DNA of 64,000 bases from Hyperoplus lanceolatus. Taxonomy: Eukaryota > Chordata > Actinopteri > Uranoscopiformes > Ammodytidae. The notes under the pieces are model-generated. The model had not been told where the DNA came from, ran no database searches, and saw only the letters and a list, made by a program, of their open reading frames with translations. Position numbers and translations under genes: made by a program. Positions within the stretch are counted from its first letter, which is position 1, and each line of letters starts with the position of its first letter. Positions 25,274 through 64,000 of the stretch are shown here, one piece after another. Location: the NCBI GenBank assembly GCA_026929865.2, contig CM049397.1:26788198-26852197 (forward strand), read 5' to 3'.

Positions 25274-35015
<9,742 letters not shown>

Positions 35016-44235: not shown

Positions 44236-46050
44236 TAAAGGTGCAGTGTGTAATATGACATCATCAAGAAAGTTCTACAAAGTTCTAGAATGCAACGCTC
44301 CCTGGGTAACCCCAACCCGTTCGAATAATAACAGAAGCTACAGTGGCCTTCAAGGTCAAGAACAATTCTAAATTTTAATTCAAATTCAAATTCAAATTCA
44401 AAGAACTTTATTTTTCCCGTGAGGTAACTTCATTTGTGGTCAGGCACATACAAACAAGACATACTTCAACAATAAATAGTCAGTATCATGTACGAGAATA
44501 AATAAATTTTTAAAAGTTAAAAGCTAAAAACCCTGTGGGTAGGGAGAAGGCTTCAATAGGTTGAAGCCTGGAGTAATGGGTTGGGTTTGGCGGGCTGGGG
44601 GGCCTACTGTTTATTCAACAGCCTGATGGATGCTGGAACAAAGGTGGACATGGCTCGTTTGGTTCTTAGGGGCAGGGAACGAAGTCTCCTTCCTGAAGGT
44701 AGCAGGTGGTACTGGTTGTTGAGGTTATGGGTGGGGTCCGATATGATCCGTCTACTTTTCCTGATGGCCTGTTTTTCAAATATGGCTGTGAGGGTGGTCT
44801 GTGGCTGTCCAATGATCTTCCCACTCAACTTTATGATCCTGTTGAGGGGACCTTTGTTCACCTCACTCAGGGAGCCAAACCAAGCCAGGATGCTGAAGGT
44901 GAGGGTGGATTGGATGAAGCAGTTGTAAAATGACTGGAGTATTGACTTGTCGACTTGCAGTCGTCGCAGCTTCCGGAGAAAGTACAGGTGTTGTTGACAT
45001 TTCTTGAAAATGCGGTCTGTGCTGCTTTTGAAGGTGAACTTGTGATCAATGATGGAACCGAGATATTTGTATTCTTCCAGTCTCTCAATTATCTGGCCAT
45101 CTAACTGAAGTGCAGGGGGGCTGGTGGAGGAGCGCCTGAAATCTATGACCATCTCTTTAGTTTTAGAGATGTTCAAGGTGAGATGGAAAGACGGCACCAA
45201 CTGCCGTCTGTCTGTGAGGAAGGAAAGGACCCACAAGGTGAGGTGTGGACTAACACCCAGTTTCTGGAGCTTGTGGCCCAAGAGGTGAGGTTGCACTGTA
45301 TTAAATGCACTTGAAAAGTCAATGAACACTAGCCTGGCGAAGTTCCCTGGTTTCTCCAGGTGCATGTGGACATTGTGCAGCAGCGTCACAACTGAATCCT
45401 CAACCCCTATGTCCTTCCTGTAGGCAAATTGAAGTGGGTCTGTAACGCCACTCACCTCCATCTGCAGTTCAGTGAGAATGAGCCTCTCAAAGCTCTTCAT
45501 CACGATTGATGTTAGAGCTACAGGGCGGAAGTCATTTTTGCAGGTGGGGTTGCTGTGTTTTGGTACTGGACAGATGATGGAGGATTTCCAGAGGGCAGGG
45601 ACGGAGTGCTCTGCTAGGGAGCGATTGAAGAGCCCACAGAACACTCCTGAGAGTTCCCTGTAGCAGGTCTTCAGGAGGCGACCTGATATCCTGTCAGGAC
45701 CAGCTGCTTTGCTGGGGTTTACTCCTTTGAAAACGTTCTCTACGTCCACCCTCTGTACTGCAAATGCCGCTGTGGATACTGTATTTTCCGTAAGCTCATT
45801 CATGAGTGACTCTGTCTCAAACAATGCACCTGATGACATTCCAACTATGACACTTTCAAGATGGCGGCACTAGGCCTTGGTCCATAATATGCAGAAATAT
45901 GGACATATATGAGAACCTTTCTAAGGGAAACAAATTATTAAAAAAAAATCAGCTATTATGCACTAGATTAAATGTACTTATGGATATTATAATTACTTTC
46001 TACAAAATCTGCTAGGAAATAAAACCCAAAATTCTACACACTGCAGGTTT
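44236..46050. mobile_element. MITE interrupted by a LINE
   Basis: The left end TTAAAGGTGCAGTGTGTAA pairs with the right end (reverse complement GCAGTGTGTAGAATTTTGGG, near 46046). Element body remains at 44236-44364 and 45841-46050. The stretch between is the LINE described separately, so the MITE is the older insertion. Confidence 0.65.
44365..45840 (-). pseudogene. Truncated LINE with reverse transcriptase lacking the catalytic core
   Basis: The 411-codon frame (44604-45839) starts in the RT fingers (KGVNPSKAAGPDRISGRLLK) and contains FIDFSSAFNTVQPHLL. It jumps from LSFLTDRRQLV straight to FHLTLNISKTKEMVIDFRR. The region that normally carries the GSPQGCVLSPLL-type block and the FADD catalytic aspartates is absent, yet the frame stays open. 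The C-terminal region is intact to SIRLLNKQ. A (TTTGAA)4-like tail lies at 44378-44402. The endonuclease is missing. It is a fish non-LTR element; I cannot set the clade. It cannot encode active RT. Confidence 0.88.
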
Positions 46051-46052
46051 AA

Positions 46053-48793
46053 AGCATGATCATCTCATCTTCAACTGCTTATCCGAAATCGGGTCGCGGG
46101 GGCAGCAGCTTGAGCAGGGAACCCCAAACTTCTCTTTCCCGGGCCACTTCAACCAGCTCTGACTGGGGGATCCCGAGGCGTTCCCAGGCCAGCGTGGAAA
46201 TATAATCTCTCCACCTAGTCCTGGGTCTTCCCCGAGGCCTCCTCCCAGCTGGACGCTCCTGGAACACCTCCCTAGGGAGGCGCCCTGGGGGCATCCTTAC
46301 CAGATGCCCGAACCACCTCAACTGGCTCCTTTCAACGCAAAGGAGTAGCGGCTCTGCCCCGAGTTCCTCACGAATGACTGAGCTTCTCACCCTATCTCTA
46401 AGGGAGACGCCAGCCACCCTCCTGAGAAAGCCCATTTCGGCCGCTTGTACCCGCGACCTCGTTCTTTCGGTCATTACCCAGCCTTCATGACCATAGGTGA
46501 GGGTAGGAACAAAGATCGCCTGGTAGATCGAAAGCTTTGCCTTACGACTCAGCTCTCTTTTCGTCACAACAGTGCGGTAAAGCGAGTGCAAAACCGCCCC
46601 TGCTGCTCCGATTCTACGGCCAATCTCACGCTCCATTGTTCCCTCACTCGCAAACAAGACCCCGAGGTACTTGAACTCCTTCATTTGGGGTAAGGACTCA
46701 TTCCCTACCTGTAGTAGACAATCCATCGGTTTCCTGCTGAGCACCATGGCCTCCGATTTAGAGGTGCTGATCCTCATCCCAACCGCTTCACACTCGGCTG
46801 CAAACCGATCCAATGAGAGCTGAAGGTCACAGGCCGATGATGCCATCAGAACCACATCATCCGCAAACAGCAGAGATGAGATCTTCAGACCACCAAACTG
46901 CAACCCCTCCCCACCACGACTACGCCTTGATATCCTGTCCATAGATATCACAAACAGGATTGGTGATAAAGCGCAGCCCTGGCGGAGGCCAACCCCCACC
47001 GGAAACGAGTCTGACTTACCGAGAACCCGTACACAACTCTCGCTTTGAGTGTACAGAGATTGGATGGCCCTGAGAAGAGACACCCTCACCCCATACTCCC
47101 GCAGCACCCCCCGCAGTATCTCCCGGGGAACCCGGTCATAAGCCTTCTCCAGATCTACAAAACACATGTAGACTGGATGAGCAAACTCCCAAGCTCCCTC
47201 TAGGATCCTTGCGAGAGTGAAGAGCTGGTCGGTTGTTCCACGGCCAGGACGGAATCCGCATTGTTCCTCTTCAATCTGAGGTTCGACTATCGGCCGAACC
47301 CTCCTTTCCAGCACCTTGGAGTAGACTTTGCCGGGAAGGCTGAGAAGTGTGATACCCCGGTAGTTGGAACACACTCTCTGGTCCCCCTTTTTAAAAATAG
47401 GAACCACCACCCCGGTCTGCCACTCCTTCGGCACTGTACCCGACTTCCACGCAATGTTGAAGAGGCGTGTCATCCAAGACAGCCCCTCCACACCCATTGC
47501 TTTCAGCATTTCTGGACGGATCTCATCAACCCCCGGGGCTTTGCCACTGTGGAGTTGTTTGACTACCTCAGTGACTTCCACCAGGGAAATTGACGATGAT
47601 CCCCCATCAGCCTCCAGCTCTGCCTCCAACATAGAGGGCGTGTTAGTCGGATTCAGGAGTTCCTCAAAGTGCTCTTTCCACCGACCGACTACCTCCTCAG
47701 TTGAGGTCAACAGCGTCCCATCCTTACTGTACACAGCTTGGATGGTTCCCCGCTTCCCCCTCCTGAGGTGCCGGACGGTCTTCCAGAAACACTTTGGTGC
47801 CGACCGAAAGTCCTTCTCCATGGTTTCTCCGAACTTCTCCCACACCCGCTGCTTTGCCTCTGACACGGCAGAAGCTGCAGCCCTTCGGGCCTGTCGGTAC
47901 CTTGCAACTGCCTCAGGAGTCCCCCGAGATAACATATCCCGGAAGCACTCCTTCTTCAGTCGGACGGCTTCCCTGACCACCGAGGTCCACCACGGCCTTC
48001 GAGGGTTACCGCCCCTTGAGGCACCTAAGACCTTGAGACCACAGCTGCCTGCCGCGGCTTCAGCAATGGAAGTTTTGAACATCGACCACTCGGGTTCAAT
48101 GCCCCCAACCTCCACAGGGATGCTAGAAAAGCTCTGCAGGAGGTGCGAATTAAAGATCTCTTGAACAGGGGCCTCCGCTAGACGTTCCCAGTTCACCCGC
48201 ACTACCCGTTTGGGCTTACCAGGTCTGTCCAGAGTCTTCCCCCACCCTTTGACCCAACTCACAACCAGATGGTGATCAGTTGACAGCTCCGCCCCTCTCT
48301 TCACCCGAGTGTCCGAAACATGCGGCCTCAGATCAGATGATACGATCACAAAATCGATCATCGACCTTCGGCCTAGGGCGCTCTGGTACCATGTACACTT
48401 ATGAGCATCCTTATGTTCGAACATGGTGTTTGTTATAGACAAACCATGACCAGCACAGAAGTCTAACAACAAACGACCACTCGGGTTCAGATCAGGGAGG
48501 CCGTTCCTCCCAATCACGCCTTTCCAGGTGTCTCCATCATTGCCCACGTGCGCGTTAAAGTCTCCCAGCAGAACTATGGAGTCCCCTACCGGAGCCCCAT
48601 GCAGGACTCCGTTCAGGGTCTCCAAGAAGGCCGAATACTCCGAACTGCTGTTTGGTGCATACGCACCAACAACAGTCAGAGTCTTCCCCCCCACAACCCG
48701 GAGGCGTAGGGAGGCGACCCTCTCGTCCACCGGGGTAAACTCCAACGTAGTAGCGCCCAGCCGGGAACCGTACTTCAGGTTTAAAGCAATGGA
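46053..48793 (-). mobile_element. 5'-truncated LINE, RTE-like, with long open frame
   Basis: The element's 3' end on the minus strand reads GGATAAGCAGTTGAAGATGA, the familiar end of a common fish LINE. The 5' end is truncated inside the endonuclease, at about 48790. It abuts the interrupted MITE on its 3' side. Confidence 0.85.
46079..48745 (-). CDS. LINE endonuclease/reverse transcriptase, 888 codons, N-terminally truncated
   Basis: Retrotransposon ORF2-type protein that nicks target DNA and reverse-transcribes its own RNA. The frame is open without a stop or frameshift and remains open to about 48794, but has no natural ATG: the first annotated codon is TTG. It starts part-way into the apurinic-like endonuclease, whose later motifs remain ([21 protein letters not shown]). 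RT blocks follow: [62 protein letters not shown] and catalytic [12 protein letters not shown] basic C-terminal region ([13 protein letters not shown]) ends at PPRPDFG. It resembles the RTE-type (Rex3-like) LINEs of teleosts; the clade should be confirmed. The intact frame suggests a recent insertion, though the missing N terminus makes it inactive by itself. Confidence 0.9.
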
Positions 48794-53871: not shown

Positions 53872-54306
<435 letters not shown>

Positions 54307-55219
54307 CACAAACCACAATCCCCCTCCCTCTTAAAGGACAGTATTTACAGAACAAATTAAAGTATAGTACATAATTAAAAAATATGAGATCCATCTCTAA
54401 AAAACAGAGGAGCTTTTGACAAAAAAAAATTAACTCTTTCGCAGATCAGGTTTCTATGGTATCGTGGAAAAATAAAAAGCAGAGCGACAGTCCAACCAGC
54501 CCTCACTGACGCGTCCTTTCCGTTTGGCCCTAGTTGTACCTTGCTAGCATGTTAAAGGGAGATGATGGATGGCTTGGGTGACCACACATCTTTTTGTCTT
54601 TTTCGTTTGTTTTGTTTTAACTTTAAAGCAAGCTGCATTACAACAAACCACACTCAATCCAATACAACAATATTTACATTTTTTTTCTCTCTGGCATTCT
54701 GGAACATAAAAATAATAATAAGCACTTGACCGACTATGCTTCCTTGGTTTGCAGGCAAAACTGTATATATTTGCTGCAGACATGTTTGTCAGTTTAGGTG
54801 TGCAGAATTAACCTTTTGATTATTTTTTTTGTCCTGTGCCGTCAATGATGAGACCATAATTATTGTTAAAAGTTACTAGAAATCACCCACTATTATTGTC
54901 ATATGTACAGCAGATTGAATGGTGAAACACGTTGGTTACACGCACTTTCTTATGCACCCAAAAAAACGGAACATAAAAATAAATAAAAAACCCATTGGAA
55001 AATCAAACAAGTGAAAAAGATCTCTGGACTACGGAGCCAGGCAGCATATGAACCAACCCTCCACACATCCACATTACAATCAAGTCCATGTGAAAAAAGC
55101 CTTGCCCTTTCAAACCTCTCTTCATTTCCTTCTCTGTCTGCACCCACAACCCGTTGAGCTTTGATCTCTCCCTCTCCCTCTCACTCTCTCTCTCCCTCTG
55201 ACTCTTTCCTACTCTGTTC

Positions 55220-55384
55220 TCAGACGTAGGGCAGGATGCCGTAGACAAACAGGGCCATGACTGCGGCGCTGAACAGACCGGCCACGGGCACCGTGACGAA
55301 CCACGCCAGGAAGATGTTCCTGAAGAGGCGCCAGTCCACTGCTCTCTGGGAGCGGATCCAGCCCACGGCCACCACAGAGCCCAC
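55220..55384 (-). CDS. slc20a2: slc20a2 (PiT-2) last coding exon
   Basis: Sodium-dependent inorganic phosphate cotransporter of the plasma membrane. After an acceptor CTCCTCCAG the exon encodes [36 protein letters not shown] and [18 protein letters not shown], then TGA at 55220-55222: 54 residues, phase 0. This is the final cytoplasmic loop and last membrane helix. The ending GILPYV and the absence of the PiT-1-type terminus point to SLC20A2 rather than SLC20A1. It follows either of two alternative upstream exons, both ending in HCK, giving the conserved STTHCKVGS or SSTHCKVGS junction. Confidence 0.95.
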
Positions 55385-55683: not shown

Positions 55684-56717
55684 CAGATGTTAGGAATATA
55701 CAGCCGTTTAAAATAACGGCGTCATAAGGTAATGCCACTTTTTTTCAGTAAAAGGGGTAATCTAACTAATTACTTTTTCCGTCGTTACAACGCCGTTATC
55801 GTTACTGAACGTTAAATGCGGTGCGTTACTATGAATTGATTGAATAAACTGTGTAATCCGAACGCACCCTGGCTCCATACTGCTAGTGAGGAGACCGGTG
55901 TGTTTTAAGTTGTGTTTTATTCAGTGTGGATGACATTATAACTGTCAGTTAGCGCCGTCACGTCAGTCAGCCGGAGCGCCTGTTTAGTGAAGTTTCTTCA
56001 CTAAACGTGCCCTCCCTGAGTTTGTTTGCATCGCCCTTGTGAGTAAGTGCATGGAGTTTTCCCATCTCTATAAGTTATAATTTATGCACGTTATTAAACG
56101 GCGCGATTCGCCGGTTGAAACAGCTGTTTAGCGTGTCATCACAAGCCGAATATTGCTACTGTTCTTTTCCTGGGATCTGTATGCTGCTGTGCATGTTAAA
56201 GAAGGAAATAAACATAGGATAAATCCTTACTCCTCCTCTCATCGTCTCATGCTTCATAGTCTGACGTTTTTGGCCTTAAGTAGTGTTTTATTATTTAGGC
56301 TACTATAGTGGTTTTAGCCGACACCCCTGAAGTGAATCCAGTGATATAGCAGATCAGCACGGTACATTCAGCAGTTTCCTCTATTACTTTTGTTGAGAAC
56401 AAAATACTTGAAGTGCAGGATAAACCTCTTGCTGTCTATTGATGTGCAATACACATTGAAGGTTATGTAGCCTACAAGTAGGCCTGCATGTTTGTTCTAC
56501 TCATTTCAACTGACTTGTGAAAACTGCTCAGAAAAATCAATTTTTTTGACATATAGCAACTTTTTTTTTTTACAGTAGGCTAACGCAAATAGTTACTTTC
56601 CCTGGTAACTGATTACTTCTATTATAAAGTAATTCAGTTACTAACTCAGTTACTTTTTGGAACAAGTAGTGAGTAACTATAACTAATTACTTTTTTAAAG
56701 TAACGTTCCCAACACTG
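55684..56717. mobile_element. hAT-type element in slc20a2 intron, about 1,034 bp
   Basis: The right end in reverse complement is CAGTGTTGGGAACGTTACTT, a very common fish hAT end. The left end CAGATGTTAGGAATA is a diverged version. The flanks carry ATTATGACA on both sides (55675-55683 and 56718-56726), an 8-9 bp target duplication. It is non-coding. Confidence 0.88.
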
Positions 56718-58883
56718 ATTATGACATAAGATATTATGATATATACTTTTTTATTCTCTCCTCTGTAGAAATGAGCATTGCTCATAAGATGATGCCACAT
56801 ATTGTGAGTAATTAAGCTGTTAGATAAATGTAGTGGAGTAACATGTTCAATAATTCCAACTGAAACAAAAAAAATATACAGATTAAGTTGAAGTGTGTCA
56901 AAAAAAAAGTGAGCCAAAGGTGATAGAACACGTTAGCATGCGGACAGAAAAGCCTGCATACAGCCTTCAGCTCTTCAACACCAGCTTGATCCTAAATATA
57001 TGTTAGTTAAAGCAGCAGATTGTAAAGGTTAGTACTACCTACATTTCATTTTACTGTTTGGAAGTCTGAAATAAGCATTTCTAGTGCATCAAATATCTGA
57101 TATGTTTGTCTTTATTTACACACAAAGACATTTCACACACCTCAGACATGTACAGTGACTGGTTTCAGCTCTGTGTGTGACGCTCAGGGACACTAAGCCT
57201 GCTATTATATGGCCAGAGGAACATGAGACGGCTCCTGTCACATTGTGGACTAAATGTAGAAGGTCAGATCAACAGACTCTATAGACTCTATAGATTACAA
57301 ACAATACCTGTCTCTACGACAGGCAAAATAGTGCCACACTACACACAAATATATTCAGAGGAGCAGATGTTAGTCAAGTAGCTTACTCTGTGGTCTAAAA
57401 TGTATCAGATTTACCTTAATTTGGATATTAAGCATTATTCTAAAGCAGTTTTTCAAAAGCCTGTGAAAACAATATCTTAACGTTGTGCTCAGGGTGTCTG
57501 TTTTCAGTAAATTGCAGTATGTGAGGCATGCAAAGCCTGTACTCAATGTGTGTGCTGCTGAATGCCTGGAGAGCTTTTGAAACAACAAGTCATTGTACAT
57601 AATCACCATAGCGCCCTGCACACACACACACACACACACACCAGGGCTGGGCATCAGTTCAGTTACACAAGTACACAAACATAAGAAGCCTAACACATAA
57701 TGAAAAAATGGTCTTTCTCCATTGAGACGAACCCAAACAGATGCCCAACACTGCTCATTCACTCTCAGAGACGGCGGGGAGATATTAACAGACATTGTTG
57801 GCCACTTTTTAAAAACGTTAACGTCAATTTTAACATTTAAATATAGAAAAATTACATTAAACATACTACATAGTCATTAATATCTTAAATACTAATTTTG
57901 TCCAACAATGTCTGAGGATCCCCCTGACACAATCACCAAATCAATCAAATCATAACCACCACAATTACAGCGTATACCTCTAGCCATCAGTAGATTTAAC
58001 ATTTTGGCAAAGCAGTTGATTATCTGAGGTGTTATGGAGGAGCGAGGGGTATTTGGAGGTGAGAAATGAAAATGATGTATCGATGGCAATGTTGGAGTTA
58101 AGACGAATTGATCATAAGAAATCAAATAAAAACTGTTTTGGGTCTTGTGCAGTTTCCCTTCAGCAGTCATTTTTTAATTATGTATCAAAATGATAAAGAC
58201 AAATGTGACAATGTCAATAAGATGCATATGTATCACTTCACTTGAACAAGTGAGATATAACATGTTAGTGAGCATTTCCCCGTCTCCAATGTTGTTGCTA
58301 AGCTATGCTAACTGGCTCCTGGCTGACAGATATGAGGGTGAAATCAATCCTCTCATTAAACACTCAGACACTGTTTCCAGAACTGTCAATATAATCCTTC
58401 AGTAAGCTTTCATAATGTTCTAGGAACACAAGTTCAACTTTTACATACTGTTCATCAAAAGAACATTTTCTTCGACTACAAAAAGATGTGGTCCTTAAAA
58501 TTGATATAATGAATAACACTATTAATGTGAACAAGTACTTAAAAATAAATGGCTACAAAAATGGAATAAAACAGCTGAACGTGTCAGATAAGTGATCTCT
58601 CATCGCTAGTTTTTTCTCATCCACCCGTCTGCTCTCAAAACATTAGTAGCTAAATGCTACTTCATACTGTTCTCTATCTAGTAAGCATGCATTGAATTTC
58701 ATAAAATGTTTCGCTTAAAGGCAAACTTGGTGGGGTTTGCAGCAGGAGGGAAACTGCAGGAGAGGTCAAAACAGCAACTTCAGGAGTTGTGATTGATTGA
58801 CTATGGACAGCTACAGGTGAAGCAATGACGCAGAGCTCTCGGAGGGCTCTCTAGAACAGCTTCACAACCAATGACTCCAATAC

Positions 58884-58968
58884 CTTGCAGTGGGTGGAGC
58901 TTATTGGGATGCCCACATTAGATGCAACAAGCACTGATAGCGCACTCATTACTTCAATGCAAAATCCG
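58884..58968 (-). CDS. slc20a2: slc20a2 penultimate exon, downstream variant copy (B)
   Basis: An 85-nt exon with acceptor CATCTGTCTTCACAG and donor AAG|GTATTG. Using AG from the previous exon it reads Ser, then GFCIEVMSALSVLV and ASNVGIPISSTHCK, and ends in phase 0 for the last exon at 55384. It is a second version of the segment encoded at 60043-60127: 19 of 28 full codons give the same residue, and 11 of those 19 use different codons. The substitutions are mostly conservative (Thr/Ser, Leu/Val, Ile/Val), with Thr-to-Cys and Ala-to-Met the largest. No stop, frameshift or splice damage is present, so it is unlikely to be a dead copy. The segment includes the PiT family P-S-T-T-H type motif near the phosphate site. 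Confidence 0.85.
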
Positions 58969-60042
58969 CTGTGAAGACAGATGAGTGGAGAGAGAGAGAA
59001 AGATGGAGAGGGAGAGGTAAGATAGTGGAGAACAAGTGTGATGGTGGGGTGGGGTGGAGGGGTGTGCGGGGGGCGCAAGTCTGTTTGCAGCCAAACACAG
59101 GACTTTGGTGGAGCCACACACACACACACACACACACAGCTAACCATGCCAATGCTGAAAGTGCAAAATGTAAGAGTTGTTGGACATGAAACAGCATGGT
59201 CCGTTACTTCTTCCTGCCCGGAGCCGAGGAACCTGAAAAGAGCAGGGGAGAGAAACTGCACACGGCCATCTGCAGCGGGCTCAGAATGTTTGATTGTCTG
59301 TTTTGTTACACTGAAAAGTTTATGACAATGTGGTTCTGATAGTCATAGTTTTAGCAATTGTTTTCTTAAAGTAACTAAGATCTGGAAAAAAGTGACACTA
59401 CTAAATGATAGATAATGATACGTTTTGATGAATGGTGTTCCATTTACTACATTTTCCTTTAGTTATCTTTGATTGATATTTAATTACCGCATGTTTTAGG
59501 CTAATTTAATAATGTAATTGATTAAATAAAAAGCTTAAATTAAATAATTTTATATGATAAACATGCAATGTTTAGCACTGACAGTCAAAGGAAACTGTTT
59601 TAGTGAGTAAATTGCACAACATTGTTTGTGACTTTAGTTTCAGCAATCTTCCCAGATCCCAGCAATTACTTGAGCTTGTACAATGTAATCACGATTGATA
59701 GAAATCACTGCCAAAACTAGTGAATAAGACTAACATTGTAATAAACCGGAACTATCTTTCTCCCACAAGAGACTGATGAAATAATATTTATCAATGGATC
59801 CTTGCAAACACTACCAGGGAGAAGAGACAGATTTCCTGGAAACATTTTTATGACCATATTTTGGTCATAAAAATGTGGCAAATCCACAGAAATGATTAGA
59901 TTGCTAAATAGGATTTTGATTTAGGGTGGTATGTGTATTTCCAGCCCGCTGCATGGGGAGGCAATGTGAGCTCCCTGTCCCCTGGGAATGCCTGTGGAGA
60001 GGGGGGTTAAGAGGCACGCTGGGAAGGGCCGCTCAGTCATAC

Positions 60043-60127
60043 CTTGCAGTGTGTCGTACTGACAGGGATTCCGATATTGGAAGCGAGCACGACTGTGAGT
60101 GCAGAGGCCAGTTCAATAGTGAATCCA
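60043..60127 (-). CDS. slc20a2: slc20a2 penultimate exon, upstream canonical copy (A)
   Basis: An 85-nt exon with a very strong polypyrimidine tract and acceptor (CCTCCCTCCTCCACAG) and donor AAG|GTATGA. It encodes (Ser)[14 protein letters not shown] then [14 protein letters not shown], close to the known vertebrate PiT-2 sequence. Entry phase is 2 and exit phase 0, the same as the variant copy 1,074 bp downstream. Part of a membrane helix plus the conserved re-entrant motif that contributes to phosphate binding in this family. The preceding exon (the cytosolic loop and GKDLTP-type segment) is not found before the right edge, so the upstream intron is longer than 3.8 kb. Confidence 0.93.
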
Positions 60128-61699: not shown

Positions 61700-63096
<1,397 letters not shown>

Positions 63097-64000
63097 CAGC
63101 TAATGCGTGGAAAGCTGAGGACAGCAGGAGAAAGAGAGAGATCAATCTAAAAAGGACAGAAGCAGCAGCCTTTGGTTAAGGATGTGTGAGGTCTGCTGCT
63201 TAGGTTTTGGGTCGAAGTGAGCCCTGGGGCCTTATGTGTCGTGGTCCAAAAGACTATTTTAAATTCATAAATATTATGTAATAAGTCAGAGGAAGAGAAA
63301 AAGTGTATAATTTTTACTTCTTACTAAGTTTAAGGAATACTTTGTGATTAGTGTAAAAAGGACCAAAGTTACTAATGTGTTGTGTTTTATCTCAAACATA
63401 AGATATTAAAATATAGAAATGTTTAGTAGTAAAATCAGTCTGCCTCTTGAAAAACAATCATGCCTTTACAGATGCAGCCAAGATAGAACATTCAAATACA
63501 GCATTGTACTTGCAGGATGCCTGTGTAGTAAATGTGCATGTGCTGCATGCTTGCAGCTGGAGCTCTGTTTGGGGAGTACAGAGTGGTTAATCAGTGCATG
63601 CTCGAGACAGACAGGCAAGTTTACTGTAGCTGTGAATCGGGAGCAGAACGTGATTGTGTGTATCTTAGGGTTATGTATTTTTACGGTCAGTTCAAATTGT
63701 AACTACTTGTTCAATAACATTTAAAAGCCTATAATAAAATGCATTGTGTGTGTGTGTGTACATTCTAATATAGCAGTGTACACATTGACACTTACCAGGG
63801 AGGCTGTTGGCACTGGCTAGACTTGTGAGTGTCAGCATGCCGAGGCTTTTTCAGAGCAAGCATGCTGGAAAGTTAACTTCTGCCTCTCTCTCTTTCTTTA
63901 TTTATTTCTCTCTCTCATCCACATATTTTTCCTCTCCACTTTTCATATATCCAGACACACATCCTTTCGCTCACCCTCCCAATGCGATGGCTCTCTCACC

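Follow-up and report, generated by a model that had tools for sequence, protein, structure and literature searches.

The 3' end of slc20a2 and its two 85-nt exons

The window analyzed here is a 64-kb stretch of DNA (C3:26788198-26852197) from a host genome of 806.7 Mb in 527 contigs, which was searched as well. Its minus strand carries the 3' end of the slc20a2 gene, encoding PiT-2. This identity, already proposed in an earlier, sequence-only reading of the DNA, is borne out by the full-length 677-aa product, and the PiT-2 type of C terminus, set against human PiT-1 and PiT-2, presumably points to the same assignment. The gene runs beyond the end of the window: in window numbering, its first coding exon starts from 75675 and is followed by E2 to E8, then by exon A or B, and then by the last exon. 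The constitutive exon upstream of A and B, E8 (minus strand), ends at position 64000, the remainder lying at 64001-64185, and its donor is AAG/GTGAGA (the slash marks the exon border). Except for A, B, and the last exon, the exon borders were placed by eye, with frame and GT/AG signals as guides. With either copy, slc20a2 has 10 coding exons, and the joined frame, which is open to its end with no earlier stop, reads through as a 677-residue PiT-2 with A or with B. Both repeat signatures are present in this single 677-aa frame, the first, GANDVANS, in the first coding exon and the second, GGNDVSNA, spanning E7/E8, the PiT signature being described as two GANDVANA-type sequences, one per repeat (PMC3126765).

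Exon A (60043..60127, minus strand, 85 nt) is the canonical version and has an STTHCK motif; its residues 5 and 23 correspond to human E575 and S593, respectively. Exon B (58884..58968, minus strand, 85 nt), the alternative version, reads GFCIEVMSALSVLVASNVGIPISSTHCK and is separated from A by an intron of 1,074 nt as defined by the exon borders (58969..60042, minus strand). The coding part of the last exon, including the stop codon (55220..55384, minus strand), ends with GILPYV and is in frame after A or B. Both copies have AG/GT borders, the same phase, and no internal stop codon, which reproduces the pair of intact, equally phased 85-nt exons described in the sequence-only reading. The STTHCK motif, which that reading had ascribed to both copies, is found in A only, B having SSTHCK instead.

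When joined to the last exon, both versions match the PHO4 domain (PF01384) at identical profile positions, with E values of 1.3e-27 for A and 2.9e-26 (92.7 bits) for B, and the B version also matches the solved PiT structure 6l85 (E 4.6e-18). Taken alone, the 28 residues of each exon align with PHO4 positions 283-310, A with an E value of 1.2e-9 (38.1 bits) and B with 3.2e-8 (33.4 bits), just missing the cut-off of 33.7. A chance resemblance of B to A could be ruled out: in a six-frame ungapped scan of the 64-kb window with the A peptide, B scores 108 and the runner-up 27.

With B as the query, a DNA search of the host genome matched nothing but B, and a protein search identified four places, namely B, A, and the matching exon at two other loci. 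A genome search with PF01384 gave at least 22 matches, all of them at three loci (at least 7, 7, and 8, respectively). Among the matches listed, profile positions ∼282-311 are covered by a single match in each slc20a1-like locus and by two in slc20a2, where the match of A (35.5 bits) is above the cut-off and that of B (31.4 bits) below it. No second copy of the exon was found in the slc20a1-like paralogues in this search of the three PiT loci; the second 85-nt exon that the sequence-only reading had suggested looking for at slc20a1 loci is thus absent from these matches, each slc20a1-like locus having a single copy. By match coordinates, the introns flanking the matching exon in these loci are roughly 90-180 nt long. 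The human SLC20A1 and SLC20A2 genes have nine intron-exon borders, eight of which are called homologous (PMC3126765), and the fish gene, counted with A, is like them in having ten coding exons. It differs by its second exon copy, none being mentioned for human SLC20A1/SLC20A2 in the portion of PMC3126765 considered.

Residue differences and predicted transport

The two copies are identical at 53/85 nt and 19/28 residues, and the codons differ for 11 of the 19 shared residues, as the sequence-only reading had counted. The codon split between exons is synonymous too, because the terminal AG of E8 forms AGT with the T of A and AGC with the C of B, both of which encode serine. We consider it very probable that this teleost slc20a2 gene underwent an ancient tandem exon duplication and that splicing of the two copies is mutually exclusive, both giving full-length PiT-2. 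Each mRNA would then take A or B, yielding two full-length transporters predicted to differ at 9/28 residues. These lie in TM9 and in the phosphate-site motif next to it, which is S-T-T-H with A and S-S-T-H with B.

TM9 of human PiT2 corresponds to G571-S593 and includes two residues critical for transport, E575 and S593 (PMC3126765); E575K has been reported in brain-calcification cases (PMC5321689). The counterparts of these two residues, at positions 5 (E) and 23 (S), are the same in A and B. Conservation of the segment was assessed in the best 80 of 559 confirmed prokaryotic PiT loci, all of which were used, a sample biased toward the query; 65 of these match a pattern demanding STTH, 9 match another pattern covering positions 1-10 only, and 6 match neither exactly. 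In this sample (best 80 of 559), G19, P21, S23, and H26 are invariant (80/80) and T25 is present in 79/80, all five being kept in B. Position 24, where B has Ser, is Thr in 74/80 and Ser in 6/80 of these best 80 loci. Because 65/80 were found by a pattern that requires STTH, this position is judged on the 9 loci matching the pattern without STTH, five of which have Ser24. Among the same best 80 of 559, 18 have Cys at position 3, 17 have Ile at position 22, and none has Met at position 7, as B does. Relatives of the A and B versions were not found in two scans of viral contigs.

Because both versions keep the residues required for transport, a changed affinity, rate, or ion dependence is likelier than a loss of transport. 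Swapping A and B would accordingly be expected to alter one of these properties of phosphate uptake between tissues or conditions while transport is retained; by analogy with other transporters, the isoforms may differ in kinetics and be under tissue control. It is improbable, by our estimate, that B instead makes a transport-poor PiT-2 that damps A in mixed oligomers, as a built-in dominant negative. PiT2 does oligomerize, and transport-dead human PiT2 variants lower wild-type uptake in mammalian cells (PMC5321689), an effect that an earlier oocyte study, as told in the same paper, did not see for such variants. What speaks against this role is that B keeps the E575 and S593 counterparts and mostly family-typical residues, which makes transport competence the default expectation.

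Divergence of the copies and constraint on B

By codon position, the differences between A and B number 10, 3, and 18 (chi-square, P = 0.004). When A was evolved neutrally in silico to an equal divergence, at least 19 residues were kept in only 2 of 100,000 copies, none of 100,000 reached the observed BLOSUM score, and 18 or more third-position changes occurred in 0.028%. The open frame alone is no evidence, because 62% of the neutral copies are without a stop codon. Nei-Gojobori (NG86) estimates, which supply the dN/dS-type comparison proposed in the sequence-only reading, give a pS of 0.80 between A and B (lower 95% bound 0.56, corresponding to a dS of ∼1.0 or more) with a dN of 0.26. For comparison, the two slc20a1-like loci differ from each other with a pS of 0.70 and a dN of 0.03; A differs from them with a pS of 0.62-0.76 and a dN of 0.05-0.10, and B with a pS of 0.63-0.66 and a dN of 0.26-0.31. 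In residues, the slc20a1-like loci agree at 28/28, A agrees with either at 25/28, and B agrees with all three at 19/28. Protein change in B has thus been several-fold faster than in the other copies, although most of it is conservative, and this faster evolution could also mean partly relaxed constraint.

With a pS of 0.80 against 0.70, the A-B duplication is at synonymous saturation, a range that it shares with the slc20a1 paralogues. At a substitution rate near 4e-9 per site per year, the duplication would be older than about 100 million years. The slc20a1 paralogues of grass carp have been attributed to the teleost genome duplication (PMC7662828), and the two slc20a1-like loci of this genome probably correspond to slc20a1a and slc20a1b. 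Their matching exons (C3:11554741-11554825 and C18:15056329-15056413) share 28/28 aa and 67/85 nt; residues that are identical despite near-saturated synonymous sites are a striking case of conservation of this segment. The introns flanking A and B show no clear similarity to each other (shuffle P 0.11 on the 5' side; 0.52 and 0.6 on the 3' side), and these dissimilar flanks, with the saturated synonymous sites, rule out a recent copy.

That B might be a decaying remnant of the exon duplication, fallen out of use, possibly by a very recent loss in this lineage, fits its donor being weaker than that of A and its protein sequence changing faster than in A and the slc20a1-like copies. We nevertheless regard such decay as quite improbable: 19/28 residues, the splice signals, and the frame survive at saturated synonymous sites, which neutral simulations match in 2 of 100,000 copies, and the five near-universal PiT residues are kept in B. 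Long-term protein-level constraint on B is supported by these comparisons, in agreement with the earlier claim of a copy that is neither recent nor decaying, the argument resting on 28 codons of one genome.

Predicted splicing outcomes, candidate signals, and known parallels

The full transporter frame is kept only if one of the two exons is included, as had been claimed: A or B gives 677 aa, A plus B gives 627 aa, and neither gives a frame-shifted product. Skipping both would lead to a 721-residue product that ends in the last exon and lacks the C-terminal domain. For this case the previously stated shift of the last-exon frame is correct; including both copies goes beyond a mere shift of the last exon, the stop being the fifth codon read in B, after 627 aa and 70 nt before the last junction. 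The range for decay is set by the 50-55 nt rule, counted from the last junction. Nonsense-mediated decay of A-plus-B transcripts is therefore predicted, because their stop lies 70 nt upstream of that junction; transcripts stopping inside B would be removed in this way, and those with neither exon would lose the C-terminal domain. Frame and constraint together suggest that A and B are spliced exclusively of each other.

Such a stop, being within decay range, would also suit a poison exon, added after A to halt translation, trigger decay, and set slc20a2 expression. This is very improbable as the main role of B, since the constraint sits in the frame of B joined to the upstream exon, not in the A-plus-B frame, and a poison exon has no need of PiT-like residues; it could act in addition.

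Mutually exclusive splicing of A and B could in principle be enforced in several ways. The two donors are AAG/GTATGA and AAG/GTATTG and the acceptors are CAG. The consensus of U12-type donors is RTATCCTTT, which is absent here; there are no U12-type sites in either exon, and U2/U12 splice-site incompatibility is ruled out. Steric interference is likewise ruled out, the intron measuring 1,074 nt where a distance from donor to branch point below ∼50 nt would be needed. A branch point of B is not expected near the donor of A, because the AG-free zone of B is only 110 nt. Neither this zone nor the donor of B is a strong sign of regulation. The other nine acceptors have AG-free zones of 26-92 nt, with 92 at E7 and 85 at E5, and as a sign the zone of B is weak. 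Its donor scores 4.2 bits against 7.9 for A, which is not special among the eight other scored donors of slc20a2 (3.5-10.7 bits), E2, E6, and E7 being at 3.5 to 4.8 bits.

The pyrimidine tract of B (58969..59038, minus strand, 70 nt) is rich in UCUY/CUCUCU words as assessed by word counts against shuffles. TCTY occurs 11 times, where 2000 base shuffles average 3.8 (P given as 0.0), and three times each in the A and last-exon tracts, the A tract being C-rich. Several other words counted in the B tract showed no departure from shuffles. Words of the UCUY/CUCUCU kind are bound by PTB, and a role for PTB at this tract would be our guess.

As an addition to mutually exclusive splicing, exclusion could operate through competing intron pairing, which we hold to be unlikely. 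A candidate docking arm downstream of B (58141..58164, minus strand), recognized by complementarity, would have two alternative partners, a selector after A, pairing with which would loop out B, and a selector after B. The candidate selectors, which like the dock are weak leads, lie between A and B (59249..59267, minus strand) and just downstream of B (58742..58763, minus strand), with predicted duplex energies of -25.3 and -27.0 kcal/mol, respectively, on the same dock. This best shared-dock pair was reached by 0/300 dinucleotide shuffles, and the two selectors align with each other at 17/20 identical columns, with one mismatch and a 2-nt gap. Against this, the arrangement was spotted in a repeat list before being tested, equal energy is reached by 16/357 (about 4.5%) same-size, partly overlapping placements in real neighboring sequence, and 7/300 shuffles reach it in a simpler exact-word test; the candidate pairing also comes from one genome. 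An upstream-dock arrangement was dropped, 53/300 shuffles reaching it. We take the layout to be that of downstream-dock models. One human candidate for such a model is CD55 (PMC5740500).

In its fullest form, which we put forward tentatively as a possibility falling short of an even chance, the proposal is that teleosts have a second ancient PiT-2 isoform in which the substrate-site segment of the second repeat is swapped (STTH to SSTH, plus eight other changes). This isoform would have its own kinetics or ion dependence and would be chosen by tissue or by phosphate/salinity state via the dock/selector switch and/or PTB-type repression of B.

Tandem exon pairs are a known kind of gene organization. 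In human, 236 events of tandem duplicated exon substitution in 214 genes have been described, more than 90% of which have orthologous events in teleosts; they are mostly ancient and enriched in ion transport genes (PMC9741552). The A/B pair of slc20a2 resembles them in that the exons are homologous neighbors and their products differ in a single homologous region, and unlike these annotated human events its splicing is predicted, from one fish genome. The closest functional parallel is exon 4 of SLC12A1 (NKCC2), the variants of which exchange the second transmembrane segment, at the ion site of this cotransporter, and so alter ion affinity (PMC6873903); PMC9741552 likewise names a mutually exclusive exon of SLC12A1. 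Both cases involve the swap of a transmembrane segment. NKCC2 differs in belonging to an unrelated transporter family, in transporting another ion, in having three variants, and in that its function was measured, slc20a2 being known from sequence. SLC25A3 and SLC39A14 belong to families other than SLC20. Like slc20a2, these genes encode transporters with alternative exons, mutually exclusive exons being reported for SLC25A3, the mitochondrial phosphate carrier, and for SLC39A14, a zinc transporter (PMC5740500). SLC25A3 shares phosphate with PiT-2 and differs from it in being mitochondrial.

In a limited open-access search of main texts, we found no report of a mutually exclusive exon pair in SLC20 genes. 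SLC20A2 is absent from the main texts of PMC9741552 and PMC5740500, as is SLC20 from the main text of PMC9013439, and the open-access papers that join slc20a2 with mutually exclusive exons concern other matters only (an alternate-promoter event of human SLC20A2, or the gene being named in a reference). Within this limited open-access literature, the SLC20 case thus appears to be new, as the sequence-only reading had supposed, and automatic fish genome annotations may already list both isoforms. If B is expressed, one gene would have retained two versions of the highly conserved phosphate-site segment of PiT-2, and a phosphate importer would join the ion transporters tuned by mutually exclusive exons, which would hint at how phosphate handling is adjusted in fish without recourse to a second slc20a2 gene. 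A short list of determinants of affinity and coupling in the SLC20 family would be given by the nine residues that differ. Human SLC20A2 is mutated in primary brain calcification, and the swapped isoform proposed above would, if true, amount to a natural active-site exchange experiment in a gene linked to this disease.

The surroundings of the exons also contain repeats. In the intron before exon A, an element of ∼1.2 kb (61803-62990) with terminal inverted repeats, TAGGGCTGTCGCGATAA ... TTCATCGCGACAGCCCTA, lies within a (GT)n microsatellite; by its looks it is a hAT-type element of the non-autonomous kind. At 55720-56740, in the intron that separates B from the last exon, there are two exact copies of TAACTAATTACTTTTT 917 nt apart along with inverted repeats, possibly another small transposon. 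A long (AT)n microsatellite (54000-54310), which may be part of the 3' UTR, lies ∼0.9 kb past the stop codon of slc20a2. LINE-type elements are located beyond the last exon of this gene, with reverse-transcriptase (RVT_1) domains in three of the eight open frames scanned (89 listed), at 28305-29714 (plus strand), 44607-45869 (minus strand), and 46082-48793 (minus strand); one of the three also has an endonuclease match and one an ALKBH8_N match.
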